From Thioalkalivibrio sp. (GTDB lineage Bacteria; Pseudomonadota; Gammaproteobacteria; Ectothiorhodospirales; Ectothiorhodospiraceae), in the NCBI GenBank assembly GCA_007116035.1, contig SKJG01000076.1, forward strand, positions 1 through 64,000: DNA of 64,000 nucleotides, written 5' to 3'. Both the position numbers and the translations under genes were made by a program. Below the pieces are notes generated by a model. It was not told the origin of the DNA, searched no databases, and worked only from the letters and a program-made list of their open reading frames with translations. Shown here in pieces: positions 751 to 44,260 of this stretch. Each line of letters opens with the position of its first letter. Position 1 is the stretch's first letter.

Positions 751-1704
751 TCATTGGTGCCATGCAAGGCCCCGAACGAATGCAACCCGTTCAGCAGGAC
801 TGAGGGCGCTCTGCGCTGCGCGCGCATCGATGCGTTCGACGCTACCCAGAAGGCCGGTGCCGTTCGCAATCTGCACGGCAAGGCCCGGCCGGGCGTTCAG
901 TTCGAGGATCAGCGGGCCGCGGTCGCGGTCGAGTACCACATCGACGCCAAGGTAACCCAGCCCGGTGAGTTCGTAACAGCCGGCGGCCAATTCCAGCAGG
1001 CGGCCCCAGCCGGGGATCGCGATACCACCTAGCGGGGCGCCAGTATCCGGGTGTCGATCGACGATGTCGTTCAGCAGAACGCCGTGGCCGGTGACGCCGG
1101 TGGCAATATCAATACCCGCCCCCACGGCGCCCTGGTGCAGGTTGGCCTTGCCGTCGGAGGCGCGGGTCGGCAGTCGCACCATCGCCATCGCGGGGTAGCC
1201 CTTGTAGACCACCGTGCGGATATCGGGCACACCCTGAAAACTGACCTGTTCGAACAACGGGTCGAAGAGGACCCGGTATTCGATCATCGCCCGATCCGGC
1301 TGGCCGCCGAGGCTGTACATGCCGCTCAGGATGTTGGAAACGTGGTGCTTGAGACCATCCAGATCCACCAGCAGGCCGGAGGCCTTGCGAAATTGCTCGC
1401 CCACCCTGCCCGTGAGCACCAGAATCCCGTTGCCACCGCTGCCGTGAGCGGGCTTGATCACAAAGTCCTCGCGCCCGGCGACGATGGCAGGAAGGTGCCG
1501 GACGTCGTGGTTGGTCTCGATCACCCCGTACAATTCGGGTACCGAGATGCCGGCGCCGAGCGCGACAGCCTTGGTCTGCAGCTTGTCGTCCACCAGGGGG
1601 TAGCGACTGCGCGGATTCAGTGCAGCGATCATCTGGGTGTTGCGGCGGTTCATGCCCACGACACCCTGGCGGCGCAGTTCCCCAGGGGTGATGAACCACT
1701 TCAT
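751..1704 (-). CDS. Alpha-L-glutamate ligase-like ATP-grasp protein
   Basis: 317 residues, resembling the RimK-related alpha-L-glutamate ligase-like family. ATP-grasp features are visible: a glycine-rich loop (IKPAHGSGGNGILVL, about residues 82-96) and a late metal-binding segment (LGVDVVLDRDRGPLILELNARPG, split here as LGVDVVLDRD and LILELNARPG). Enzymes of this fold join an amino acid or peptide carboxylate to an amine using ATP; the substrate here is unknown. The start overlaps the stop of the upstream membrane protein by 4 bp (ATGA), so it is the third gene of a tight operon. The neighbourhood ATP-grasp ligase, inactive transglutaminase and retropepsin-like protease is recurrent in proteobacteria, pointing to one shared pathway. 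Confidence 0.85.
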   Translation of the reverse strand: MKWFITPGELRRQGVVGMNRRNTQMIAALNPRSRYPLVDDKLQTKAVALGAGISVPELYGVIETNHDVRHLPAIVAGREDFVIKPAHGSGGNGILVLTGRVGEQFRKASGLLVDLDGLKHHVSNILSGMYSLGGQPDRAMIEYRVLFDPLFEQVSFQGVPDIRTVVYKGYPAMAMVRLPTRASDGKANLHQGAVGAGIDIATGVTGHGVLLNDIVDRHPDTGAPLGGIAIPGWGRLLELAAGCYELTGLGYLGVDVVLDRDRGPLILELNARPGLAVQIANGTGLLGSVERIDARAAQSALSPAERVAFVRGLAWHQ

Positions 1705-3230
1705 GGACCGGAGCGCCCGGCCAGCACCCGGAACCGCAGCAACTCAGACAGGCGGTACCCCGTATAACGCCCCAGCAGCAGAGTGGCAGCGAGCACGATC
1801 AGGAGTAGTTCCGGGAACACGAAGATCAGGTGCTCGATATAGGGATTGATCATCAGCAGATATCCGGCCACCGCGACCATCAGGCTTCCGATCCCCTGCC
1901 GGATCGCGTCCCCAGCCCCGTGCTCCTCCCAGACGATCGACATGCGTTCGATGGTCATCGCCAGGATCACCATGGGGAACAACGCGATGGCCAGACCATG
2001 TTCGATCCCCAGGCGGTGACTGAGGATACTCAAGGTGAGCATCAGCATCACCACGATGCTGACCACGGCCGCCAGCCGGGGTACCAGCAGCAGCTTCAGG
2101 TGTTCCAGATAGAACCGGATGGCCAGCCCCAGGGACACGATGAGGGTGAACAGGATCACCCCGCCGAGCAACTCGGTCTCGCGAAACGACAGTGCGATCA
2201 GTACCGGCATGAAGGTGCCGAAAGTCTGCACGCCGACCACGTTGCGCAAGAGCACGATGATCATCGCGCCGACCGGGACCATCAGAAGTACCCGGTACAT
2301 GTTCTGGGTCTGCACCGGCAGGCCGAACAGCGAAAAATCCATCACCCGGGAGTTCAGGAGTTTCGCGCGCTGCTGAGCGGTATCCACCGCGTCCTGAAAA
2401 TTTCGGCTGACCGCGAAGCTGACCTGCGCGTTGCCGGCACGGTTGAGTTCTATCGGATCCTCATCTCCGTACCACCAGACCAGGAAGTGATCGGGGTAGC
2501 CCACGCTGCCGTCGTTGGGGTTGATCGCAACCCACTCACGGGTGTTGTGGACCTCGAGCCAGGTCCGGGGCTGCAGGTCCCGGCCACGATCCGTCAACTG
2601 CAGCCCATGGGCCATGCGGGCCGGTATACGGGCACCCGCCAGCAGTTCGATCGCGACAGCCACGCGGTCGCGATCGCTGGCATTCCCGGGCTGGAACAGA
2701 CGCACGTTCTCATCGGCACCACTGAGCAGGTCGCGTACCAGCACGGTCGCGAAGCTGGTGATGTCGGCGGAACGCGCACGCACCTGCTCGACGATGGTCT
2801 CGGCCGCGGACCGGTAGGGCTCGTCCAGATCCGGGACATCGGCGGGGCCAGGGTAGTCCGGCTGGGTTCGCAGAGAGCGTTGCAACTGGTAGACCGTGGC
2901 ACGGTAGTAGACCACCTGCCGACCGCTCGGACTGCGTGTGGTCCAGGTTGCTTCCCGGTTAGCACCGTCCATACCGGTGGCCAAACCGTAGCCGCGGGAT
3001 ACGAAGTGTTCGTCCAGAAGGGCAAAGCCGGGTGGCTCATGCGGCAGGAACAGCCGGGCGGTGAGCGCGCCACCCGTTGGCTCGAACGCGACGCGCGCTT
3101 CGACGGTCCAGTTGTCAGTGGTCTGGGCCGGCAGCACCGGGAAGCCGAGATTCCAGACCTTGTGATAAAAGACCCCGAGGCTGAGCGCTGTCAGAAACAG
3201 AATCAGCAGCGGAAGGTGCAGGCGCCTCAT
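1701..3230 (-). CDS. Inactive-transglutaminase membrane protein with C-terminal 7-TM region
   Basis: 509 residues. An N-terminal membrane helix (about residues 5-25) anchors a periplasmic region of about 280 residues. This includes a transglutaminase-like core (ARIPARMAHGLQL, TWLEVHNTREWVAINPNDG). The usual catalytic Cys is not evident, in line with the family name 'inactive transglutaminase'. From about residue 310 on there are seven hydrophobic segments. The architecture matches the 'inactive transglutaminase fused to 7 TM helices' family (UUP1 type). It overlaps its upstream and downstream neighbours by 4 bp on both sides. A role as membrane sensor or scaffold working with the adjacent protease and ATP-grasp ligase is inferred from context. 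Confidence 0.85.
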   Translation of the reverse strand: MRRLHLPLLILFLTALSLGVFYHKVWNLGFPVLPAQTTDNWTVEARVAFEPTGGALTARLFLPHEPPGFALLDEHFVSRGYGLATGMDGANREATWTTRSPSGRQVVYYRATVYQLQRSLRTQPDYPGPADVPDLDEPYRSAAETIVEQVRARSADITSFATVLVRDLLSGADENVRLFQPGNASDRDRVAVAIELLAGARIPARMAHGLQLTDRGRDLQPRTWLEVHNTREWVAINPNDGSVGYPDHFLVWWYGDEDPIELNRAGNAQVSFAVSRNFQDAVDTAQQRAKLLNSRVMDFSLFGLPVQTQNMYRVLLMVPVGAMIIVLLRNVVGVQTFGTFMPVLIALSFRETELLGGVILFTLIVSLGLAIRFYLEHLKLLLVPRLAAVVSIVVMLMLTLSILSHRLGIEHGLAIALFPMVILAMTIERMSIVWEEHGAGDAIRQGIGSLMVAVAGYLLMINPYIEHLIFVFPELLLIVLAATLLLGRYTGYRLSELLRFRVLAGRSGP

Positions 3231-3841
3231 AACCCCCGCGCCACGTGCCGCTTCCCTGCCGCCGGGGCCGCATCGTAAGCCGAAGGATCAACTGCCGGGT
3301 GCAATCCCGTGGGGTCCGGGACGCCCTCCGGCAACGCGCAGCGGGGCGACTGGGTAAACGTCTCCGCCGGGTCCACCACGATGGCCCCCGCCATGTGATT
3401 ACGGCCCACCAGGGCCTGGTAATTCAGCTGCGTACGGTCGACCAGGTTCATTTCCTCTTCGCGGTAGACGCTACCCATGCACAGTCCGATCGTGACCACG
3501 GGCCGCCGCTGGTGCTCGCCATCGTGGCGAATGATCCGGACGTATCGGGTGACTTTGCGCTCCAGCCGCACCTTGCTGTCCGGAGTCTCGGGGTCGATGA
3601 TGTCAAAGGCGATCCAGCGCTCCCCATCGCGGCGGAAGGCCTCCTTGTTCAGCGCATTCAGCGACGATGTGGTGGCCCCGGTATCCATCTTGGCCTTCAG
3701 CGATATTCCTTCAGGAAAAATTTCGACCCGCTCGACCCAGCCGAAGATGGAACGGCTTGCGGGTTCGTCCGCGGCAAGGCCGCTGCTCGCAAAAAACAGG
3801 GTCAGCAGCAACGCAGCTGCGCGCAAAACGTGCGGGTACAT
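3227..3841 (-). CDS. Exported retropepsin-like (RimB-type 'zinc protease') protein
   Basis: 204 residues from the chosen start. That start is preceded by GGAGGA at 4-nt spacing and begins a clear signal peptide (MYPHVLRAAALLLTLFFASSGLAA). A longer reading to 4072 lacks such support. The mature part has KAKMDTGATTSSLNA, the DTGA active-site motif of aspartic retropepsins, and GRNHMAGAIVVDP near the C-terminus. This is the Pfam family historically named ATP-dependent zinc protease, although the fold is retropepsin-like. Export suggests it acts in the periplasm next to the membrane protein encoded immediately downstream. First gene of the three-gene operon. Confidence 0.85.
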   Translation of the reverse strand: MYPHVLRAAALLLTLFFASSGLAADEPASRSIFGWVERVEIFPEGISLKAKMDTGATTSSLNALNKEAFRRDGERWIAFDIIDPETPDSKVRLERKVTRYVRIIRHDGEHQRRPVVTIGLCMGSVYREEEMNLVDRTQLNYQALVGRNHMAGAIVVDPAETFTQSPRCALPEGVPDPTGLHPAVDPSAYDAAPAAGKRHVARGL

Positions 3842-4175
3842 CGGGTCCTCCATCGAATCCATCGGGCCAGCATTCACTGGCTCCTTTTGCCGGAGCCATA
3901 AGATTTTAATTATACGCGGATTCCGACCTCTTGAGGCATCAAGCGTTCCCATTGCCATGACCCCGTCACCCGTCCTTCGCCACGAATCCGGGAACCGTCG
4001 ACGGAACGCCACTTCCCGGACTGCGAACGATGCCCGCATCACGCAAACTCCGCGATCTGCGTCTACTATCACTGAAGCCTGCGGTCGTCAGGCAAAACAA
4101 GGTACGTGCGGTCCGCCCCCCGGGGCGAGGACATGCGCGGCTCATCAGCAGCCTGCTTGCCCGGAGGTAGCCGCG
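3842..4175. other. Divergent intergenic region between protease operon and HMA-like gene
   Basis: No gene is recognised here. On the minus strand there is a perfect TATAAT (3909-3914) about 68 bases upstream of the protease start, in an AT-rich pocket that contrasts with the GC-rich surroundings. No convincing -35 box sits at 16-18 bp. The right part must hold the plus-strand promoter for the small gene at 4176, but I see no clear match. Confidence 0.4.
3909..3914 (-). promoter_or_regulatory. Candidate -10 box for the protease operon
   Basis: TATAAT read on the minus strand, perfect to the sigma-70 -10 consensus. The -35 region is poor (TGCCTC at 18-bp spacing is the nearest option), so activator dependence or a different -35 is possible. 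Confidence 0.35.
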
Positions 4176-6430: not shown

Positions 6431-6527
6431 GTCGAACGCAGCAACCGATGCCTATCGGTCCCCTGCCACGCCGTCGGGCTGCGCAGCATCGGAAACCTCA
6501 GCGCGGCGATTGGCTAGAATACGTGTC

Positions 6528-7130
6528 ATGGACGCCATCAGTGAGTTGGGCACCCTTCCCGCGCTGATGGCGGGCATCAGCCTGAGCGCCGCGGCGGGAT
6601 TGCGGGTGTTCCTGCCGGTGCTGGCGCTGGGGCTTGCCACGCGCTTCGGGCTGCTGGAACTGGGCGAGCAATTCGCCTGGCTGGCTTCCGACCCGGTGCT
6701 GATGGTGGTGGGCATTGCGGCCCTGCTCGAGATCGGCACGTACTACATCCCCATTGTCGACAACCTGCTCGACACCCTGGCCACTCCGGCGGCCATTGGG
6801 GGCGGCACGGTCATCGTTGCGGCGCTGCTGCCGGAGATGCACGGGCTACTGCAGTGGGGCATCGCGGCTCTGCTGGGCGGTGGTGCAGCGGGCATCACAC
6901 AGGGAACGACCGTGCTGGCGCGCGGCGTATCCACGGCGTCGACCGGCGGCCTCGGCAACCCCCTGATCGCGACTTCCGAAACCGGCGGCAGCCTGGTCGC
7001 GATCCTGCTCGCCCTGTTGATCCCGGTGGTCTTCGGTGTGGTGGTGATCCTGGTCCTGGCCTGGCTGCTGGTGCGGCTGGTCCGGCTGTTACGTAGCAGA
7101 CGGCACCGGGCACCGGCTCCCGGCGGTTGA
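6528..7130 (+). CDS. DUF4126 family membrane protein
   Basis: 200 residues with several hydrophobic segments and a glycine-rich central part (AAIGGGTVIVAALLPEM, LLGGGAAGITQGTT). The pattern fits the DUF4126 family of predicted inner-membrane proteins, whose function is unknown. It ends in a basic tail (LRSRRHRAPAPGG). The start used here matches the family; an in-frame upstream extension looks non-coding. TAGAAT at 6515-6520 ends only 7 bases before the ATG and no Shine-Dalgarno sequence precedes it, so a leaderless transcript is possible. Confidence 0.75.
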   Translation: MDAISELGTLPALMAGISLSAAAGLRVFLPVLALGLATRFGLLELGEQFAWLASDPVLMVVGIAALLEIGTYYIPIVDNLLDTLATPAAIGGGTVIVAALLPEMHGLLQWGIAALLGGGAAGITQGTTVLARGVSTASTGGLGNPLIATSETGGSLVAILLALLIPVVFGVVVILVLAWLLVRLVRLLRSRRHRAPAPGG

Positions 7131-7290: not shown

Positions 7291-8811
7291 ATGAAGGTAC
7301 TGGTCGTTCTTGGGCACCCTCGCGTCGAGAGCCTGTGCGGAGCACTGGCCGCGGCGTTTGAAACGGGGGCACGAGAGGCCGGCGCCGAGGTCCGAAACTT
7401 GCGTCTCTCGGCGCTGGAGTTCGACCCCCACGTGCGCAGGGAATCACCGAACCAGCAGCCGCTGGAAGCGGGTTTACGGGAGGCACGGGAACTGATCGTC
7501 TGGGCCGAGCACCTGGTGTTCGTCTACCCGACCTGGTGGGGAACGATGCCGGCCTTGCTGAAAGGGTTCCTGGACCGGGTGTTTACCCCCGGCTTTGCGT
7601 TCCGGACCTGCGAGGGAGGCACCGGTTACCAGGGATTGCTGGGCGAACGTTCAGCGCAGTTGATCACGACCATGGATACCCCACCGCTGATTCATCGCCT
7701 GGTCTATCGCCAGCCCGGTCGCGAAGCGATGGCGCGTGCGACCCTGGGCTTCTGTGGCATCCGGCCGGTGCGCTCTCTGGTCTTCGGCCCGGTGCGGACC
7801 TCGAGCCCGGAGCAACGCCAGCGCTGGCTGGACCGCGCCCGCCGCCAGGGCCAGAGGCTGCAACGTGGCCGGTTCACACCCAGCGAGCGGCTGCGCCACA
7901 AAGCAAGCTCTTGGCTCCGGGGCGTGCGCCTACAGTTCTACCCGATGACCTGGCTGGCCTACACTGCCGGGGCGCTCGCAGCCGGGCCGCCGGGCGGCGT
8001 GTTCGGCAACCCGGTCTTCTGGCTGGGCTATCTCTGTCTGTTCCTGCTGGAGGTGGCGACGGTCCTGAGCAATGAACTGCTGGACGTACGCAGTGACCGC
8101 AACAACCGCTTCTTCAGCATGTTCACCGGAGGCTCCCGGGTGCTGGTCGAAGGCTTACTGAGCCCGCGGGAGGTTCAGGCCGGCATTGCGGTCAGCCTGG
8201 CCGCCTTCGTCGCGGCCACCGTGGCGCTCCTGACCCTGACGCCGGGCTCCGCAGCGGCAGCGCTCGCGGTGCTGGCTCTGCTGACGTTCCTGGCCATCGG
8301 CTACACCGTGCCGCCCATGAAACTCAGCTACCGCGGACTGGGCGAGATCGACGTGGCGGTCACCCACAGCCTCGGCGTGATCCTGTGTGGCTTCGTGTTC
8401 CTGGGCGGGCACTGGCAGGATCCGCTGCCTTGGCTGCTGAGCCTGCCGCTGCTGCTGGCGATCCTGCCGTCGATCACCCTATCGGGCATTCCCGACCTCG
8501 AAGCCGATGCGGCTGCCGGCAAGCGCACGCTGGCCGTACGCCTGGGGCACCGGAACACGCTGTGGCTGGCCACCGCGTTCACAGTACTCGCGGCGGCTGC
8601 GGCGGTACTATGGGACCTCTTCGGCGTGGCCAATGGGGCCTACGCGGGGATCGCCTATCTTGCCGTCCCTCACGCCCTGTGGCTGACTTGGCTGCTATAC
8701 AGACGCATCGAATCCGCGGCTTCTCCGGGCCGCATCGATGGCCTGATGGCGGCCTCTCTCACCTTCATACTCTGGTTTGGCATCGTCCCGGTACTGCGGC
8801 TCGCGGGTTGA
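7291..8811 (+). CDS. Flavodoxin-fold NAD(P)H:quinone reductase fused to UbiA prenyltransferase
   Basis: 506 residues in two domains. Residues 1 to about 190 form a flavodoxin-2 domain like quinone reductases: MKVLVVLGHPR at the start and YPTWWGTMPALLKGFLDRVF as the flavin/quinone pocket signature. Residues about 205-506 form a polytopic UbiA prenyltransferase: the first Asp-rich motif is NELLDVRSD and the second is DLEAD followed by GKRTLAVRLG. Both catalytic motifs look intact, and no stop or frameshift lies between the domains. UbiA enzymes attach isoprenoid chains to aromatic rings such as naphthoate or hydroxybenzoate. Joining one to a quinone reductase suggests reduction and prenylation, or recycling, of a quinone-like compound. 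ATG 7291 is preferred over TTG 7228 because it begins the flavodoxin strand. Confidence 0.85.
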   Translation: MKVLVVLGHPRVESLCGALAAAFETGAREAGAEVRNLRLSALEFDPHVRRESPNQQPLEAGLREARELIVWAEHLVFVYPTWWGTMPALLKGFLDRVFTPGFAFRTCEGGTGYQGLLGERSAQLITTMDTPPLIHRLVYRQPGREAMARATLGFCGIRPVRSLVFGPVRTSSPEQRQRWLDRARRQGQRLQRGRFTPSERLRHKASSWLRGVRLQFYPMTWLAYTAGALAAGPPGGVFGNPVFWLGYLCLFLLEVATVLSNELLDVRSDRNNRFFSMFTGGSRVLVEGLLSPREVQAGIAVSLAAFVAATVALLTLTPGSAAAALAVLALLTFLAIGYTVPPMKLSYRGLGEIDVAVTHSLGVILCGFVFLGGHWQDPLPWLLSLPLLLAILPSITLSGIPDLEADAAAGKRTLAVRLGHRNTLWLATAFTVLAAAAAVLWDLFGVANGAYAGIAYLAVPHALWLTWLLYRRIESAASPGRIDGLMAASLTFILWFGIVPVLRLAG

Positions 8812-34665: not shown

Positions 34666-35571
34666 TCACGCGTCCTGAGCCGACGTCCCCTCGATCCGCT
34701 GCACATCCACCGAGACCATCAGCGTGTGCTTGGCGCCACTGCCGCGGACGACCCCACGGATCGGCGCCACATCACCGTAGTCGCGGCCCCAGGCCAGGGT
34801 GACGTAGCGCTGATCCGGCACGGTGTCGTTGGTGGGGTCGAATTCCAGCCAGCCGCGGATCGGATCATAGAGCGCGAACCAGGCATGCGTTGCGTCCGCA
34901 CCCACGAGCCTTGGCCTACCGGGGGGCGGGAGGGTCTCGAGGTATCCGGACACGTAACGAGCGGGAATGCCCAGCGTGCGGCTGCACGCGATCGCGAGAT
35001 GGGCAAAATCCTGGCAAACGCCGACGCGCCTGGCGACCACATCGCTCAAGGGCGTGCTGACCTCGGTCTGCCCAGGTCGGTAGGCGAACTCGTCGAAGAT
35101 GAAGCGCGACAGTTGCAGGCCCAGCGCCTCGACGCCCTGCTCCGGGTCCACGGTCAGCCCCACGCGCTGCAGCAGGTCCGACAGTTCGGGCAGTAACGGC
35201 GACGCCTGGCTGAAACCGCGCGCCTCCAGCGCGGCAGGCCGGCAATCCCCGCGCAGGTGCTCGCGGACTTCGGCCAGCGACAGCGGGGGATCGAACGGCA
35301 GTTCCGCCTCGACCATGACCCTGCCCACCTCCGACACGGTGGTCACGCTCCATTCCCGGTGTGCTTCCTGGATGCCGAGAATGCTGGCCGGGTTCCCGAA
35401 GGCGTCCTGGTACGCTGCCAGGTAGCTGGCCTGCGGAACGACGTTGATCTGGAAGGCGTGCAGCCTCTGCAACGGCGTCGCTCGCGGCTTGAGCCGCAAC
35501 TCGTTGAGGCTGCCGTGTACCTTGGCAGGGTAACGGTACCGGGTGATATGGGTGATCCGGTACCGCATCAC
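34666..35571 (-). CDS. Transglutaminase-like protease, Anbu-associated
   Basis: 301 residues with the bacterial transglutaminase N-terminal domain (MRYRITHITRYRYPAKVHGS) and a core carrying an apparently complete triad: Cys in RVGVCQDFAH, His in DATHAWFAL, Asp in EFDPTNDT. In such loci these enzymes are predicted to cleave or form amide bonds in peptides made by the neighbouring ATP-grasp ligases. Start ATG 35571 overlaps the upstream stop by 4 bp. Last gene of the minus-strand unit facing anbu. Confidence 0.88.
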   Translation of the reverse strand: MMRYRITHITRYRYPAKVHGSLNELRLKPRATPLQRLHAFQINVVPQASYLAAYQDAFGNPASILGIQEAHREWSVTTVSEVGRVMVEAELPFDPPLSLAEVREHLRGDCRPAALEARGFSQASPLLPELSDLLQRVGLTVDPEQGVEALGLQLSRFIFDEFAYRPGQTEVSTPLSDVVARRVGVCQDFAHLAIACSRTLGIPARYVSGYLETLPPPGRPRLVGADATHAWFALYDPIRGWLEFDPTNDTVPDQRYVTLAWGRDYGDVAPIRGVVRGSGAKHTLMVSVDVQRIEGTSAQDA

Positions 35572-38144
35572 ACCGCACGAGCCACGAGGGGCAGCGTGGG
35601 CGCGGGAGCGAGGTAATGCGCGAACATCGCCTGGTAGCAGGCCGCCAGCTCCTGCTGCTGCTGAAGCAGCAGCGCATCGAGGTCCGCACGCAGCCCGTCC
35701 TTCGGCTCGGCCCAGCCTCCGACAACAGCGAGACGGAGCCGGGAACGGGCCTCCTCGAGGTGGCGGGCATGCGCGGGCAGGCGTTCGCCGTGGTCGAGAC
35801 GCGGCAACTGCCCGACATGCTCCACCAGGCGGTCCAGTTGATAGATCAGTGCCCTTGGGTTCTCCGGCTCCAACAACAGCAGGTCCAGCAGCCCGAGCGC
35901 ATTGCGCTGGTTTTCCGGCCGGGAACGGAAGATGGACAGGCTCTCGGCGAAGGCCAGCACCATATCGCCCAACAGCACCGCCTGTCGCGGCTCGGGCGGC
36001 ACCACCAGCGTCGCGCGCAGGAGATTCACCAACATCAGGCCACGTTCCAGTCGCCGTCCGCTATCCATGAAGCGCCAGCCGTGATGGCGCAGCATGCTCT
36101 CGTGGGTCAATCCCGAAAGAGCCAGCAGGTGGACCGTGAGCTCGTCCAGGATACTTTCCGCCGCCAGCGGATCCCGCAAGGCCGCCAGGGGTTGCCCGAC
36201 TTCCCTGAGTCCCGTCAGTACGCGCACGCTCTCCGCCGAGAGCCGGTCGCGCAGGGCGTTGGCGGTATTGTGCAGGGCATTCAGTGCCGAAGACACACTG
36301 CCCGGGACACGGGCATCGGTCAGCAGACGAAGGAGTTCCGACTCCGGTCGATGGAGATTCCTGCCCTTGCCATCGGCCCCGACAAACCCCGGATAGCTGC
36401 CACTGAGGTGTGTCAGCGCCCGCAGCATGTAGCCGGAGACCTCATCGCCCGACCGGGCCTCGAAGCGCGCCACCTGCAGCCGTCGAAGAACCAGTCGCAG
36501 CCAGCGGATCAGGCCTTCGGCGCGTTCGGCGTAACGCCCGGCCCAGAGCAGGTTGTCGGCGACCCGGCGCGGCAGACTCGAAGGCTGGCTGACGCCGGCT
36601 TCCGGTTCCGGGAATGCGTCGGCGCGCGGAGGTGCCGCGCCAACCCGGCGCAACACCCAGGTGTCCTTGCTGACCCCTCCCTCCTGGTTCGAAACCATCC
36701 GGGTCTCGGGGCGGCTGGCGACCCGGGTCAGGCCCCCGGAAAGCACGAGAGGGCCGTCAGGGGACTGGCAGGTAAAGGCCCGCACGGTCCCGTGCCGAGG
36801 CTCAAGAAAACCCGCCTCGTTCAGGCAGGGCATGGTCGAGAGTCCGATGCATTCCTGGCCCACGAACCGTGTCGGCTGCCCCCGGATCTGCGCACAGAGG
36901 CGACGACGTTCCTCCTCCGGCAGCCCGGCCAGGAACATCGGCCTGCCCCCCTCGGTTCGATCGACGCTGCGGACCACGAAGGACTCGCTGTGCGCCATCA
37001 CGTGTTCCAGCGAGTCCGGGTCGCCGCACCACCAGGTCGCGACCGAAGGCATCAACAGGTCCTCACCCAGCGCAAACCGGGCGATTGCGGGCAGAAATGC
37101 CGGCCAGGCCGGGCTTTCCAGCAGCCCGGTACCGAGGGCGTTTGCCACGACGACATTGCCGCGGCGTACGGCCTCGACCAGACCGGCGACACCGAGCCTG
37201 GAATCGGGGTTCAGGCTCAGCGGATCACACCATGCGTCGTCGACCCGGCGCAGGATCACGTCGACCCGCTCCAGCTGACCCAGCGTGCTGAGCCAGATGA
37301 AGCCGTCGCGGAACACGAGATCCTGCCCCTGGACCAAGGCCAGGCCCAGTTGCCGCGCAAACAGCACGTGCTCGAACCAGGCCTCGTTCAATGGCCCCGG
37401 GGAGAGCAGGACGATACGCGGCTCCGGCACCGAGGGCACGAGGTCGCGGAGGCCCTGGTACAAGCCACGGAAGAATGGGCCCAGCCCCTGCACGCCGAGT
37501 TCCGAGAAAGCCGCCGGCCAGGTTCGTGAAAGGATCTCCCGGTTCTGCAGGGCATAGCCCGCACCCGAGGGCGCCTGGGTACGGTCGCCGAGCACCCAGA
37601 AGCGTCCGTCAGGCCCCCGGGCAAGATCGGCGGCGTAGAGAGTCAGGGCCGGGAGATCGGGCCGCAGCGTGCCCCGTACCGGTTGCAGAAAGGCGCTGTG
37701 CGCGGCCAGGAACTCCGGCGGCAGGATGCCCGCCCGCAGCAACTCGCCCGGACCCAGCACATCCTGGATGATCCACTCGAACAGGCCTGCGCGTTGCACC
37801 AGCGCCTTCTCGATCCCGGCCCACTCCTCGGCATCCAGAAGGTGGGGAATCGCGTCCAGCGGCCAGGGGCGCTGGACGCCGACCGGGTCGGAATAGACGT
37901 GGTAGGTTACGCCCAGTTCGTCGACCAGGCGTCGGGTCTCCCTGCCGATGTCGCGCAACACGCTGCCTTCGTGGGCGCCCAGTGCCCTCAACAACGGCAC
38001 CCACTGCGGCCGAGGCGTACCATCCGGCTGCAGCAATTCGTCGGCGTCTCCGGACACGGGAGCATAGGCTCCGAGCGCCGTGACCAGGGGATCCCCCTGA
38101 CGTCCCGCGGTCTGTCCCTGGGCCTGCCCCTGCGGCAGGCTCAT
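35568..38144 (-). CDS. Circularly permuted ATP-grasp protein fused to alpha-E domain
   Basis: 858 residues from ATG 38144; longer readings are unsupported. Residues 1 to about 490 are a DUF404/DUF407-type circularly permuted ATP-grasp (GVTYHVYSDPVGVQRPWPLD, PEPRIVLLSPGPLNEAWFEH, TRMVSNQEGGVSKDTWVLRR). Residues about 520-858 are an alpha-E (DUF403) domain (LPRRVADNLLWAGRYAERAE, MDSGRRLERGLMLVNLLRA). The same two domains occur as separate genes at 41641-44032, so this is a paralogous fused pair. Probably a peptide or amide-bond ligase. Starts 13 bases after the upstream gene and overlaps the downstream one by 4 bp. Confidence 0.88.
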   Translation of the reverse strand: MSLPQGQAQGQTAGRQGDPLVTALGAYAPVSGDADELLQPDGTPRPQWVPLLRALGAHEGSVLRDIGRETRRLVDELGVTYHVYSDPVGVQRPWPLDAIPHLLDAEEWAGIEKALVQRAGLFEWIIQDVLGPGELLRAGILPPEFLAAHSAFLQPVRGTLRPDLPALTLYAADLARGPDGRFWVLGDRTQAPSGAGYALQNREILSRTWPAAFSELGVQGLGPFFRGLYQGLRDLVPSVPEPRIVLLSPGPLNEAWFEHVLFARQLGLALVQGQDLVFRDGFIWLSTLGQLERVDVILRRVDDAWCDPLSLNPDSRLGVAGLVEAVRRGNVVVANALGTGLLESPAWPAFLPAIARFALGEDLLMPSVATWWCGDPDSLEHVMAHSESFVVRSVDRTEGGRPMFLAGLPEEERRRLCAQIRGQPTRFVGQECIGLSTMPCLNEAGFLEPRHGTVRAFTCQSPDGPLVLSGGLTRVASRPETRMVSNQEGGVSKDTWVLRRVGAAPPRADAFPEPEAGVSQPSSLPRRVADNLLWAGRYAERAEGLIRWLRLVLRRLQVARFEARSGDEVSGYMLRALTHLSGSYPGFVGADGKGRNLHRPESELLRLLTDARVPGSVSSALNALHNTANALRDRLSAESVRVLTGLREVGQPLAALRDPLAAESILDELTVHLLALSGLTHESMLRHHGWRFMDSGRRLERGLMLVNLLRATLVVPPEPRQAVLLGDMVLAFAESLSIFRSRPENQRNALGLLDLLLLEPENPRALIYQLDRLVEHVGQLPRLDHGERLPAHARHLEEARSRLRLAVVGGWAEPKDGLRADLDALLLQQQQELAACYQAMFAHYLAPAPTLPLVARAV

Positions 38145-38157
38145 CGGAAACGCAGAA

Positions 38158-41100
38158 TCACTGCGAAGGCTCCGGACCCCGGCGCAGATCCAGCGTGTGG
38201 GGATACTCGGGATTCCAGCCCTCGGCCGGTGGCGCCAGCGGCCTGACCCCGCTGCCCTCGGGCAGGAAACGACGCTCGCTGGCGACCGGGCCGGCCACCA
38301 CGGTGCGTGGCTCCAGGGGTCCCGGCGAATGGCCGTAGGGCCAGAACCGCGCCATGCGCCGGGCCTCGGCCTCGAAGGCGTTGACCGGGAAGGTCTCGTA
38401 GTTGCGCCCGCCGGGATGCACCACGTGATAGGTGCAACCGCCGATGGCGCGGCCGTTCCAGGTGTCGACCAGGTCGAACACCAGCGGTGAATGCACGGCG
38501 ATGGTCGGGTGCAGCGCAGCGGCCGGCTGCCAGGCACGGTAACGCACGCCCGCCACCTTCGTGCCCTGGATGCGCGTCGGGCGCAGCGGCACCCGGCGGC
38601 CATTACAGGTCAATACGTAGCGGTCGCCCGACAGGCCGGTCACCCGCACCTGCAGGCGCTCCAGGGACGAATCCACGAAGCGGGAAGTCCCGGACTGCGT
38701 CACCTCCTCTCCCAGCACGTGCCAAGGCTCGATCGCCATCTTCAATTCGATCTCGATCTCGCCGATCTGCACCCGGCCGAAGGTCGGAAAACGGAACTCG
38801 AAGAAAGGAGCCAGCCACTCGAGGTCGAAGGGGTAGCCGTCGCGCTGCAACTCCTCCACCACCTCGCGCAGGTCATTCTCCACGTAGTGAGGCAGCAGGA
38901 AGCGGTCGTGCAGTGCCGTTCCCCAGCGCACCAGCCGGTGCCGGTACGGCTTGCTCCAGAAGCGCGCGACCAAGGTCCGCAGCAGCAGCATCTGCACCAG
39001 GCTCATCCGGGCGTGCGGCGGCATCTCGAAGGCCCGCAGTTCCAGGATGCCGAGCCGGCCCGAGGCGGTATCGGGAGAATACAGCTTGTCGATGCAGAAT
39101 TCGGCGCGGTGCGTGTTACCGGTAATGTCCACCAGCAGGTTGCGGAACAGCCGGTCCACCAGCCAGGGCTCGGCACACTCCCCCTCCGGCATCTGGGACA
39201 GCGCGATCTCGAGTTCGTAGAGGTTCTCGTGCCGGGCCTCGTCGACCCGGGGCGCCTGCGAGGTGGGGCCAATGAAGGTTCCGGAAAAGAGGTACGACAG
39301 GCCCGGGTGATGCTGCCAGAAGGTCAGCAGCGACCCGAGCAGGTCCGGACGCCGCAGCAGGGGGCTGTCGGCAGCGGTGGCGCCGCCCAGCGTCACGTGG
39401 TTGCCGCCACCCGTCCCGGTGTGGCGGCCGTCGAGCATGAATTTCTCGGTACCCAGACGGGTGAGGCGCGCCTCGGCGTAGAGGGTGGTGATGATCTCCT
39501 TCAAGTCCTCCCAGTTCGACGACGGGTGAATATTGACCTCGATCACGCCCGGATCCGGCGTCACCATCAACCGCTGCAGCCGGGAATCCCGCGGCGGCTC
39601 GTAGCCCTCGAGGACGACCGGAAGACCCAGCTCGGCGGCGGTGGTCTCGATACGGTCGACGAGCGCCAGGTAGTCCTCGAGCAGCGGTAGCGGCGGCATG
39701 AAGAGGTGCAGCCGGCCGTTGCGGGCCTCGAAGGCCAGGGCCGTGTGCGGTATCTCGATGACCTCCTCTCGGGTCGAGGGCTGTGGCTTGTCCCGCTGCG
39801 GGACCGGTACCACCCCGGATTCCGGAATGAATACCGGCAACGCTCCAAGCTCGTCGAAGGGATCCCGGGGCTGCGGCTGGACTTCGACTTCGCGCGTCAC
39901 CGACCAGGGCAGGCGATCCAGCGGCAGGCGCAGGCCCATCGGGGAGTCGCCCGGAATCAGCCGCAACCGGCCATCCCGGAACGGCCAGGGTCCGGTCCGC
40001 CAGGTCTCGTACTCGCGGGCCAGCGGCAGCACGAAGCCCGCGGGGTTCTCCAGGCCGTGACTCAGGAAGCGCGCGAGGCGTTGCCGTCCCGCCGGCGCCT
40101 TCAGGTCCGCCTTTTCCGGGTCCAGCCCCAGCGGCAGGTTGTCCTCCGACCATGCGGCATGAAAGGGATCCTCGAAGGCAGGGATCAGATCGTCGCGGGT
40201 CAGGCCCAGCTTGACGACCAGAGCCTCTGCGAACCGCTGGGCCGCATCGAGTGTGTGGCCGTAATCCTGGCTGAAATCGGCCAACCATTGCGAATCGTGC
40301 CAGACCGGCTGGCCATCACGGCGCCAGAAGATGCCCAGCGCCCAGCGCGGCAGCGCTTCGCCCGGATACCACTTGCCCTGCCCGAAATGCAGCAGCCCGC
40401 CGGGCGCGAATCGATCGCGCAGGCGGCGGCTCAACTCACGGGAGAGACGGCGCTTGTCCGGGCCGTCGGCACGGGTGTTCCATTCCGGGCCGTCCATGTC
40501 GTCGATGGATACGAAGGTCGGCTCCCCACCCATCGTCAGTCGGACGTCCATCGCGCGCAGTTCCGCGTCGACGCGCTGACCCAGACCGTCGATGGCGACC
40601 CACTGGTCGTCGCTGTAGGGCCGCGTCACACGCGGATCCTCGTGGATGCGCTGGACCCGGTTGTCGTGCACGAACGAAACCTCGCAGGCCTCGGTATAAC
40701 CGGTTACGGGCGCCGCCGAGATCGGATCGGGCGTGCAGGCCAAAGGGATATGTCCCTCGCCGGCAAACAGGCCGGAGGTCGGATCCAGGCCGACCCAGCC
40801 GGCCCCGGGAATGTAGACCTCGGTCCAGGCGTGCAGATCGGTGAAGTCCACTTCCGTCCCGGAGGGACCGTCCAGGGACTTCTCGTCGGCCTTCAGCTGG
40901 ACGAGGTAGCCGGAGACGAAACGCGCCGCCAGCCCCTTGTGGCGCAGGATCTGCGCCAGCAACCAGGCCGAGTCGCGGCAGGAGCCGATCCGCCTCTCCA
41001 GCGTCTCCTCGCAGGACTGGATGCCCGCCTCCATGCGCACGCTGTACGCGATGTCCTGATTCAGGCGCCGGTTCAGTTCGACCAGGAAATCGACGATGCT

Positions 41101-41517
41101 CTCGTGGGATTCGGGCACCTCTTCCAGCCAGGCCCGCAGCAAAGGCCCGGCCTCCGAGACCTCGAGGTAGGGCACCAGCTCCTTGGCGAGGATGCCGTCA
41201 TAGACGAAGGGGTAGTGCTCGGCATAGCTCTCGACGAAGAAGTCGAAGGGATTGATGACCGTCAGCTCGGCAATCAGGTCGACATTGACCTCGATGAAGC
41301 GGACCGCCTCGGGGAAAGTCACCCGGGCCAGCCAGTTACCGAACGGATCCTGCTGCCAGTGGATGAAGAACGGCTCGGGCGCGATGTTCAGCGAATACCC
41401 CAGGACCGGCGTCCGGCTGTGGGCGGCCGGGCGCAGCCGGATCACGTGCGGCGACACGCGTACCAGGCGGTCGAACTCGTAGCGGGTGTGATGCGTCAGT
41501 CCTACGCGTATCGCCAT
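38158..41517 (-). CDS. Transglutaminase fused to DUF2126 putative amidoligase domain
   Basis: 1119 residues. The N-terminal 300 residues are a bacterial transglutaminase (GLTHHTRYEFDRLVRVSPH, catalytic Cys in RRIGSCRDSAWLLAQ, His in FTDLHAWTEVYIPG, Asp in GLDPTSGL). The rest, about residues 330-1119, is the DUF2126 region, predicted as an amidoligase, with MGGEPTFVSIDDMD, TGTGGGNHVTLGGAT and GILELRAFEMPPHARMSL. It could link peptide cleavage and amide formation in one chain. Common member of Anbu-type loci. 123 bases without recognised features separate it from the alpha-E gene upstream. Confidence 0.9.
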   Translation of the reverse strand: MAIRVGLTHHTRYEFDRLVRVSPHVIRLRPAAHSRTPVLGYSLNIAPEPFFIHWQQDPFGNWLARVTFPEAVRFIEVNVDLIAELTVINPFDFFVESYAEHYPFVYDGILAKELVPYLEVSEAGPLLRAWLEEVPESHESIVDFLVELNRRLNQDIAYSVRMEAGIQSCEETLERRIGSCRDSAWLLAQILRHKGLAARFVSGYLVQLKADEKSLDGPSGTEVDFTDLHAWTEVYIPGAGWVGLDPTSGLFAGEGHIPLACTPDPISAAPVTGYTEACEVSFVHDNRVQRIHEDPRVTRPYSDDQWVAIDGLGQRVDAELRAMDVRLTMGGEPTFVSIDDMDGPEWNTRADGPDKRRLSRELSRRLRDRFAPGGLLHFGQGKWYPGEALPRWALGIFWRRDGQPVWHDSQWLADFSQDYGHTLDAAQRFAEALVVKLGLTRDDLIPAFEDPFHAAWSEDNLPLGLDPEKADLKAPAGRQRLARFLSHGLENPAGFVLPLAREYETWRTGPWPFRDGRLRLIPGDSPMGLRLPLDRLPWSVTREVEVQPQPRDPFDELGALPVFIPESGVVPVPQRDKPQPSTREEVIEIPHTALAFEARNGRLHLFMPPLPLLEDYLALVDRIETTAAELGLPVVLEGYEPPRDSRLQRLMVTPDPGVIEVNIHPSSNWEDLKEIITTLYAEARLTRLGTEKFMLDGRHTGTGGGNHVTLGGATAADSPLLRRPDLLGSLLTFWQHHPGLSYLFSGTFIGPTSQAPRVDEARHENLYELEIALSQMPEGECAEPWLVDRLFRNLLVDITGNTHRAEFCIDKLYSPDTASGRLGILELRAFEMPPHARMSLVQMLLLRTLVARFWSKPYRHRLVRWGTALHDRFLLPHYVENDLREVVEELQRDGYPFDLEWLAPFFEFRFPTFGRVQIGEIEIELKMAIEPWHVLGEEVTQSGTSRFVDSSLERLQVRVTGLSGDRYVLTCNGRRVPLRPTRIQGTKVAGVRYRAWQPAAALHPTIAVHSPLVFDLVDTWNGRAIGGCTYHVVHPGGRNYETFPVNAFEAEARRMARFWPYGHSPGPLEPRTVVAGPVASERRFLPEGSGVRPLAPPAEGWNPEYPHTLDLRRGPEPSQ

Positions 41518-41640
41518 GCCCTGCTCTCCCGTTCATCGTCTTTACCGGCGCGGAAGCCCGCTGCCGGAGTACTGTCCATCGCCATCCGATCGGTCGCCGC
41601 GTCCGAACCGGACGTCGTGCCAATGCCGCGCACCCTGCAA

Positions 41641-42582
41641 TCAGGCGGCCTTTTCCAGGCTGAACCAGGTGTCGACGATTGCGTCATGGATCTCGGCAAT
41701 GTCCTGCTGCAGGCTGTCGAGGAAGTCGTGCAGCCGATCCTCGGAGATCAGCTGATCCACGTCGGCCCCCAATGCATGACGCCGCGCCTGCATGACCAGG
41801 CGCAGTGGCACCTCGTTGCGCGGCAGACGCTCCAGGGCCTCCTGCACATAGCGCAGGGCATGGGCGACCGCGCGCGGGAACGGGATGTCCTGAAGCAGGA
41901 AGCGCACGACGTCTGCGCCATTGATCCGCCGCTTCACGTGCTGGCGGTACATCTGGAACCCGCTCTGGGAACGCAGGATGCTGGTCCAGAGCAGTCCGTC
42001 GTAGGGACTCGGGTCGTCGCTGGCTTTTTTCAGGAAACGAATGGCACCGACGTCGATCTGGCGGGAGGTCATGTCGGCCCGTTCCAGGTTGCGACCGAGG
42101 CGGATGAAGTCATACGCGGGGTCGTGGCTCATGCACCCGGCCAGCAGGCCGGTCAGCGTCTGGCAGCGCTGCACGATCTCGCTGAGAAACTGGTAGCGGC
42201 CCCGCTTGCCGATGCCCGCGTCCATGTTGTCGCGCGCGAAGAGATAGAGTTCGTTGACGATCTCCCAAGCCTCCGATGGCACCAGGTCGCGGGTCGTGCG
42301 CACGTTCTCGCGCGCGGACTTCAGCGAACTGAAGACCGAGCTTGGATTGTAGTGATCCGCGAGCAGGAACTTCACGCAGTTGCGCTCGTCGTCGCGCTGA
42401 TAGTGCTCATCGAAGATGTCGTCCGTGCCGGTCACCGCCACCAGCCCCTTCCACGACAGCTTCACCGTCTTGGGCATGTCCAGAGACACGAGATTGAACG
42501 ACATGACCATGCGCGCGGTGTTCTCGGCACGTTCGATGTACCGCGCCAGCCAGTAGAGCCTTTCCGCTACTCTCGAAAGCAT
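41641..42582 (-). CDS. Alpha-E (DUF403) protein
   Basis: 313 residues, all-helical. The start MLSRVAERLYWLARYIERAENTAR (split: MLSRVAERLYWLARYI, ERAENTAR) is the family signature, as is YDFIRLGRNLERADMTSRQI in the middle. Function unknown; always near circularly permuted ATP-grasp proteins. A single base separates the start from the stop of the ATP-grasp gene upstream (TGAGATG), indicating coupled translation. Paralogous to the C-terminal half of the fusion at 35568-38144. Confidence 0.9.
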   Translation of the reverse strand: MLSRVAERLYWLARYIERAENTARMVMSFNLVSLDMPKTVKLSWKGLVAVTGTDDIFDEHYQRDDERNCVKFLLADHYNPSSVFSSLKSARENVRTTRDLVPSEAWEIVNELYLFARDNMDAGIGKRGRYQFLSEIVQRCQTLTGLLAGCMSHDPAYDFIRLGRNLERADMTSRQIDVGAIRFLKKASDDPSPYDGLLWTSILRSQSGFQMYRQHVKRRINGADVVRFLLQDIPFPRAVAHALRYVQEALERLPRNEVPLRLVMQARRHALGADVDQLISEDRLHDFLDSLQQDIAEIHDAIVDTWFSLEKAA

Positions 42583-42583
42583 C

Positions 42584-44032
42584 TCAGGCCTCCTCGTCCA
42601 CGATCCAGGTGTCCTTGCTCCCCCCACCCTGTGAGGAATTCACGACCAGCGAACCCTTGCGCATTGCCACCCGGGTCAACCCACCGGCGGTCACGTCGGT
42701 ACGCACGCCCTGCAGCACGAAGGGCCGCAGGTCCAGGTGACGCGGCTCAAGACCTTCCTCGCAGAGGGTGGGCGCCACCGACAGGCTCAATGTCGGCTGG
42801 GCGATGTAATTGCGCGGGTCCTTCTTGATCAGCTGCGCAAACTCGGCACGCTGCTTCTTGGTCGCGTGCGGACCCACGAGCATCCCGTAGCCCCCCGATT
42901 CGTTGGCAGGCTTGACCACCAGTTCGTCCAGATGCTCCAGCACGTACTCGCGTTCCTTCTCGTTCACGCAGAGGTAGGTCGGCACGTTCGGAATGATCGG
43001 ATCCTGGTCCAGGTAGTACTTGATCATGTCCGGCACGTAGGCATAGATCACCTTGTCGTCGGCCACGCCGGACCCGGGTGCGTTCGCGATCCCGACCTTG
43101 CCGTTGCGCCAGGCGCGCATCAGGCCGGGCACACCGAGCATCGACTCGGCGTTGAACGCCTCGGGATCCATGAATTCATCGTCGATACGGCGGTAGATGA
43201 CGTCGACCCGCTCGAGTCCCTGGATGGTGCGCATGTAGACGCAGTCGTCGTCGCCCACGACCAGGTCCGCACCCTCCACCAGTTCGGCACCCATGCGCTG
43301 GGCCAGGAACGAGTGTTCGAAATAGGCCGAGTTGAAGATCCCGGGCGTCAGAACCACGACCTCGGGGAAATCCTGCGGTCGCGGCGAGATCGACGCGAGC
43401 ATGTCGAAAAGCTGGGTCGGATACTCGTCCACCGGAAGAATGCTCGAGTTCTCGAAGACCTCCGGGAACACCCGCTTGGTCACCTGGCGGTTCTCCAGCA
43501 TGTACGACACGCCGGAAGGTACCCGAAGGTTGTCCTCCAACACGAAGAGGGTGCCGTCCCCGTCCCGCACCAGGTCCGAACCGCAGATGTGCGCCCAGAC
43601 CCCATGCGGGGGGTGGATCCCCCTGCACTGCTCGCGGAAGTTCTTCGAGTTGTTGAGCACGTACTTCGGCAGGATCTTGTCGCGGAAGATCTTCTGATCA
43701 TTGTAGACGTCGTCGATGAAGAGGTTGAGCGCGGTCAGCCGCTGCACCAGCCCCTTTTCCACCGTCTGCCACTCGCGCTTCGGGATCACGCGGGGGATGA
43801 TGTCGAACGGCCAGGCGCGGTCGATGTTCTCGCCCTCGCTGTAGACGGTGAAGCTGATCCCCATTTCCAATATGGCGTGGTCGGCGGCCTGCTTGCGGGT
43901 CTGCAGTTCCTGGTCGTCCAGGGAACTGAGGTAGTCCGTGAGTTTCTTTGCCACCGGACGCGGCTTGCCGCGCGACTGAATCAGTTCGTCGTAAAAGGGA
44001 GTGGGATCATACGACTTCCAGTCAATGGACAT
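42584..44032 (-). CDS. Circularly permuted ATP-grasp protein (DUF404/DUF407)
   Basis: 482 residues from ATG 44032, which has GAGGA 8 bases upstream. Visible family signatures: ISFTVYSEGENIDRAWPFDI, RGIHPPHGVWAHICGSDLVR, VVVLTPGIFNSAYFEHSF, KPANESGGYGMLVGP and SSQGGGSKDTWIV at the C-terminus. Predicted to be an ATP-dependent peptide or amide ligase. First gene of the five-gene minus-strand unit. The last motif recurs in the fused paralogue as EGGVSKDTWVL. Confidence 0.9.
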   Translation of the reverse strand: MSIDWKSYDPTPFYDELIQSRGKPRPVAKKLTDYLSSLDDQELQTRKQAADHAILEMGISFTVYSEGENIDRAWPFDIIPRVIPKREWQTVEKGLVQRLTALNLFIDDVYNDQKIFRDKILPKYVLNNSKNFREQCRGIHPPHGVWAHICGSDLVRDGDGTLFVLEDNLRVPSGVSYMLENRQVTKRVFPEVFENSSILPVDEYPTQLFDMLASISPRPQDFPEVVVLTPGIFNSAYFEHSFLAQRMGAELVEGADLVVGDDDCVYMRTIQGLERVDVIYRRIDDEFMDPEAFNAESMLGVPGLMRAWRNGKVGIANAPGSGVADDKVIYAYVPDMIKYYLDQDPIIPNVPTYLCVNEKEREYVLEHLDELVVKPANESGGYGMLVGPHATKKQRAEFAQLIKKDPRNYIAQPTLSLSVAPTLCEEGLEPRHLDLRPFVLQGVRTDVTAGGLTRVAMRKGSLVVNSSQGGGSKDTWIVDEEA

Positions 44033-44260
44033 CCGGGCCATCCTCGCGCAAAAGGGAAGCGGAACGTCCGCTACTCTAACCCACCCGGAGCCCAGCAAGA
44101 ACCCTGCCGATTCCCTGCCGTTCGTCGGACGAGCACGCCCAATAGCGATGGGGCCAGCCTGCACCAAAGCGGCGCCGATCCATGCCCCGGTCTCTCGAAG
44201 ACGCATGCGAACGGTGCAGGAAATGACGCGGGAGCGAGACCTCCACGCCGGCTGTGACCC

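Follow-up and report, generated by a model that had tools for sequence, protein, structure and literature searches.

The window analyzed here, a 64,000-nt stretch of Thioalkalivibrio sp. DNA (contig SKJG01000076.1), holds a gene that appears to join a flavodoxin-fold quinone reductase to a UbiA prenyltransferase. This raises two questions: whether the joined gene is a genuine two-enzyme protein, and which reaction such a pairing would serve.

One chain with two conserved domains

The gene is a single uninterrupted frame on the plus strand, running from an ATG at 7291, which agrees with the family's conserved start, to a stop codon ending at 8811 (506 codons plus stop). A Pfam search placed Flavodoxin_2 (residues 1-183, E 1.6e-38) and UbiA (residues 225-477, E 1.3e-26) on the same chain, and AlphaFold2 modeled the whole protein with a pLDDT of 90.8 and a pTM of 0.80. 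A scan for promoters and terminators returned nothing above chance. The features discussed below are as follows.

6453..7130, plus strand: upstream DUF4126 membrane protein (PF13548, E 2.8e-46)
7291..8811, plus strand: NAD(P)H:quinone reductase-UbiA prenyltransferase fusion, 506 aa, coordinates including the stop (conserved start and full length; AlphaFold2 model)
7291..7839, plus strand: N-terminal Flavodoxin_2/NQO-like domain, residues 1-183 (PF02525, phmmer, Foldseek)
7525..7578, plus strand: predicted isoalloxazine-site signature YPTWWGTMPALLKGFLDR, residues 79-96 (invariant residues, 47 members)
7840..7905, plus strand: linker, residues 184-205, where conservation is lowest (dN/dS)
7906..8808, plus strand: C-terminal UbiA intramembrane prenyltransferase domain, residues ~206-506 (PF01040, AlphaFold2, Foldseek)
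8071..8106, plus strand: first Asp-rich UbiA motif N261xxxD265xxxD269xxN272 (all four residues invariant, 47 members)
8122..8142, plus strand: F278xGGSRV284 motif (invariant in 47 members; shared by many MenA-like proteins that stand alone)
8491..8523, plus strand: second Asp-rich UbiA motif P401-D402xxxD406xxxxK411 (invariant, 47 members)

The N-terminal domain scores 132.8 bits against PF02525 (cut-off 27). Its best phmmer match is SMU.1420 (3lcm, E 9.9e-25), and Foldseek returned the same structure (E 2e-12, TMt 0.83-0.88) together with NQO2 and NQO1, so that a flavodoxin-like fold accompanies the profile match. The FMN-site stretch Y79-P80-x-WWG-x2-PALLKGFLDR is conserved, and P80, W82, W83, G84, P87, L90, K91, F93, D95, and R96 are invariant in 47 members. 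As the closest solved relatives are quinone reductases, this half is presumably an FMN-dependent NAD(P)H:quinone reductase. It shares its fold and FMN-site signature with SMU.1420/NQO2-type FMN quinone reductases (PF02525), but those enzymes are soluble and stand alone, whereas the reductase here is joined to an intramembrane enzyme.

The C-terminal half scores 93.8 bits against PF01040 (cut-off 34.2), a profile matched by 47/47 members. N261, D265, D269, D402, and D406 do not vary among these members, nor does H359, nor the R213xQFYP218 stretch of the first transmembrane helix, which is specific to this family. Although phmmer of this half against the PDB gave no match, its AlphaFold2 model (pLDDT 93.8) did match by fold: Foldseek aligned it to 4od4, 4tq3, 6m31, and 8djk (probability 1.00, E 1e-6 to 1e-5), a set comprising archaeal UbiA homologues, DGGGP synthase, and human UBIAD1 (8djk, TM 0.68/0.73). 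The fusion thus carries the profile, the two Asp-rich motifs, and the helical fold of the UbiA superfamily.

Against relatives at 95, 79, and 78% identity, dN/dS of the fusion is 0.11, 0.16, and 0.14, and each half taken alone gives 0.10-0.18. The linker reaches 0.33-0.74 in the two comparisons with finite dS and therefore evolves faster than both domains. The low ratios, overall and in each half, indicate purifying selection on both halves, as is expected of a functional two-domain protein. The earlier note, made from the window's letters, had placed a flavodoxin-fold reductase and a UbiA enzyme in one continuous protein with both active-site motifs intact; its coordinates and domain names are correct, and most motif positions are invariant over 47 diverse members.

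Occurrence of the fusion

A scan of GTDB genomes yielded 531 related stretches. Among the best 80 loci, at least 69 encode a full-length fusion, at 46-95% identity. The loci listed include Thioalkalivibrio, Thiobacillus, Halomonas, Polaromonas, Nitrotoga, and Salinisphaera, as well as Bacteroidota, Balneolota, Gemmatimonadota, Planctomycetota, and others; where loci come from metagenome bins, organism titles are only as reliable as the binning. Within the genus, 12 of 29 genomes encode the full-length protein, and four more hold partial copies (at contig ends or damaged). The fusion is rare all the same, occurring in 3/398 sampled Pseudomonadota with its own genome counted. Searching across genomes for the same domain pair, as the earlier note had suggested, therefore finds it sporadic but intact in several bacterial phyla.

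The UbiA half was also surveyed by profile in 276 genomes of the same class. Five members passed E<1e-100, and each lies in a frame of 534-617 aa, consistent with the fusion. Behind them, at E~1e-35, come other UbiA proteins in other clades, their E-values weaker by some 80 orders of magnitude. The picture was the same in 297 Bacteroidota genomes, and neither survey turned up a stand-alone orthologue of this UbiA lineage. The fusion appears fixed wherever its UbiA lineage was found and is apparently obligate. The earlier note had named two findings that would count against it, a frameshift or assembly error between the domains and orthologues encoded as separate genes. The first we rule out on the basis of full-length copies in many other assemblies and of dN/dS; the second did not appear in the class and Bacteroidota surveys.

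Two damaged copies were seen. In one genome (G012:C1:2733363-2734526, locus L107), the N-terminal half is not intact and the UbiA half is still recognizable, which could reflect decay or separability of the halves. The other, from a metagenome bin (L069:5001-6506), is interrupted by an in-frame stop at about residue 117.

In the fusion tree, Halomonadaceae, Polaromonas, and Thioalkalivibrio each occupy more than one position, a pattern compatible with transfer and loss. We also considered mobile or phage cargo as a general explanation and rejected it, since the full fusion is in no phage record and on one plasmid, from Roseinatronobacter.

An accessory prenyltransferase and its possible chemistry

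The host genome encodes a separate true UbiA on contig C167, a MenA-like protein on C161, and MenD on C36 (E 1e-114). The MenA-like gene adjoins a NiFe hydrogenase gene (the hydrogenase identified from sequence), an adjacency seen in three genomes (L113:3661-4533(+), which is the host's own C161 locus, L188, and L193). Because the host already has these three proteins, the fusion is a predicted third, accessory prenyltransferase. The notion that it is the genome's MenA or UbiA was rejected on the same ground and by its NCBIfam scores: the window protein falls below the cut-offs of the MenA models TIGR00751 and PRK06080 (43.9 vs 102.15; 60 vs 264; 57.5 vs 346) and reaches 19.7 against 275.45 for the 4-hydroxybenzoate prenyltransferase model TIGR01474. 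The same weak profiles recur across the fusion family.

A UbiA tree that included E. coli K-12 UbiA, MenA, and CyoE and numerous further UbiA proteins for reference groups the UbiA halves of the fusions in a single clade, which is a distinct lineage on the MenA-like side. With MenA (1,4-dihydroxy-2-naphthoate prenyltransferase) they have in common the UbiA fold, the Asp motifs, and this side of the tree, and with MenA-like stand-alone proteins the GGSR motif; they differ in the fused reductase and in RLQFYP in the first transmembrane helix, where MenA has an RP motif. The UbiA half might accordingly be a divergent MenA-like isozyme acting on DHNA or a similar acid with no reduction needed, the fusion serving only for co-expression or to tether a detoxifying quinone reductase to the membrane. 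Its place in the tree fits this, as do the weak MenA matches in most members and the fact that DHNA is itself already a hydroquinone. We nonetheless consider it improbable, given that every MenA cut-off is missed by a wide distance, that a separate MenA-like protein coexists in the host, and that mere tethering explains the strict retention of the fusion poorly.

Slightly more doubtful still is an acceptor other than a quinone (another aromatic, a carotenoid-like compound, or an archaeal-type lipid), with the flavin domain reducing that substrate or its product. Among UbiA-type NCBIfam models the best match is PRK12884 (66.5 bits vs a cut-off of 269), whose function is only loosely defined; archaeal DGGGP synthase is among the closest folds, and UbiA specificity is not readable from sequence (PMC5133447), all of which leave room for such an acceptor. 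The N-terminal domain's closest structural relatives, which are quinone reductases, argue against it.

We favor, at a probability of about 0.5, a bifunctional membrane enzyme that would reduce a quinone and then prenylate it, giving a membrane-anchored prenylated quinol. The active site of the UbiA family faces the cytosol. The FMN domain, presumably at the cytosolic face, would draw on NAD(P)H to form a hydroquinone from a quinone that is probably small and diffusible (a benzo- or naphthoquinone). The UbiA domain of the same chain would then prenylate this electron-rich ring with the polyprenyl group of a prenyl diphosphate, leaving the product anchored in the membrane. Reduction ahead of prenylation is chemically sensible because UbiA enzymes act on electron-rich aromatics. 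The reaction order, quinone substrate, prenyl donor, and cytosolic topology are those we infer, and the role would be one of salvage or protection rather than the main respiratory quinone supply. A point against this reading is that the activity of the NQO half may be generic, as its stand-alone relatives (44-56% identity) are widespread in genomes without the fusion; the host itself has one stand-alone relative at ~39% identity (L104).

A known precedent is the salvage of vitamin K3 to MK-4, in which UBIAD1 prenylates menadiol once menadione is reduced (PMC10719312). Free-quinone reduction there precedes UbiA-type prenylation, as proposed for the fusion, but the route uses UBIAD1 and a separate menadione reductase in eukaryotes, as opposed to one bacterial chain. 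The UbiA half counts UBIAD1 among its top Foldseek hits, a likeness of fold only. EboC, the UbiA of the ebo operon, resembles the fusion as a UbiA lineage with no assigned substrate that has been spread by transfer, and differs in having no additional domain and in lying in a six-gene operon (PMC5133447).

An architectural parallel comes from two genomes of one genus, in which a PNPOx_N flavin split-barrel domain, which may bind FMN, another flavin, or F420, precedes a UbiA domain (L189:2300-3976(-), 558 aa; L191:4057-5646(-), 529 aa). As in the fusion, an FMN-type domain is followed by UbiA in one chain, but the flavin fold is unrelated and the UbiA clade is different. Two unrelated FMN-type domains on two UbiA lineages suggest a functional link between flavin chemistry and prenylation, and this independent fusion supports the coupling of reduction to prenylation. 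That coupling, which the earlier note had taken to be implied, is the most economical reading; it is still one that we infer.

Other UbiA genes with notable neighbors were also seen. A same-genus genome has an apparent operon of Flavodoxin_5, a bacterial sugar transferase, and a MenA-like UbiA (L115:2072-4314(+)), and another locus (L187) pairs a sugar-transferase-like gene with UbiA but lacks the flavodoxin. At L186:5638-9744(-), a UbiA gene is flanked by genes for a fatty-acid-desaturase/ferredoxin protein on one side and for an FAD amine-oxidase-type protein on the other; this UbiA is an early-branching relative on the MenA-like side with the GGSR motif, and is another redox-linked UbiA.

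Gene neighborhood and implications

Comparison of the loci revealed no gene conserved beside the fusion and no conserved operon, in keeping with the earlier remark that neighbors give no pathway, and no operon partner names the fusion's substrate. The upstream DUF4126 gene accompanies it in close relatives only (also at L024), outside any conserved operon; DUF1328 and DUF3185 genes lie directly downstream in the window, and two loci have in common an upstream gene of 526-570 aa without a Pfam match.

Elsewhere in the window, genes at 751-4072(-) encode a RimK-like ligase (TIGR02291), an RloB-like membrane protein (NF052267, below cut-off), and an RloA-like retropepsin, a three-gene osmotic-stress-type set. 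A cluster of transglutaminase-like, DUF2126 amidoligase, Alpha-E, and circularly permuted ATP-grasp proteins at 34666-44206(-) is probably involved in peptide-type modification.

Some neighbors recur. Long catalases (KatE) lie within 5 kb of the fusion in four lineages (L028/L029, L045, L101, L102), compared to 0.17 expected over all 80 loci; hemerythrins occur nearby more often than expected (L039/L043, L097, L101, L111); and Ku is present at L101, with a second Ku-like gene at L102 by sequence clustering (Ku/LigD-type, two loci). The choice of these families followed inspection of the loci; the enrichment is therefore post hoc, and the stress islands they suggest are a hint rather than a test.

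Such neighbors would suit a reversed order, in which prenylation comes first and the FMN domain then holds the lipoquinone, or else the entire quinone pool, in a reduced form that serves as membrane antioxidant; NQO-type enzymes do reduce quinones in general. We regard this order as possible but unlikely: beyond the post hoc nature of the enrichment, small quinones are the best substrates of NQO-type enzymes, and UbiA enzymes need an acceptor that is already electron-rich.

Under the favored reading, reduction followed by prenylation, the fusion probably makes or salvages a lipid-anchored quinol, perhaps for stress protection, and it may belong to a branch of quinone or meroterpenoid metabolism not yet described. 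It is a rather long shot that the protein is a self-contained quinone-capture enzyme, one that reduces free quinones (toxic or scavenged) and fixes them in the membrane as prenylated quinols. Stressed cells in alkaline, saline, or oxidative habitats would thereby gain a protective lipoquinol that belongs to neither the ubiquinone nor the menaquinone pathway.

Full-text searches of the open-access literature on fusions and on the UBIAD1/UbiA background returned no description of the fusion, an absence that is weak evidence; the domains are known, and their obligate fusion is apparently undescribed. One fusion record (H1) is labeled merely "NAD(P)H-dependent oxidoreductase," an annotation behind which lies a conserved, selected two-enzyme architecture. 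In sulfur oxidizers, halomonads, nitrite oxidizers, and Bacteroidota, the fusion points to a lipoquinone or prenylated aromatic outside known pathways, and because both steps would reside in one chain, the coupling of reduction to prenylation is directly testable.
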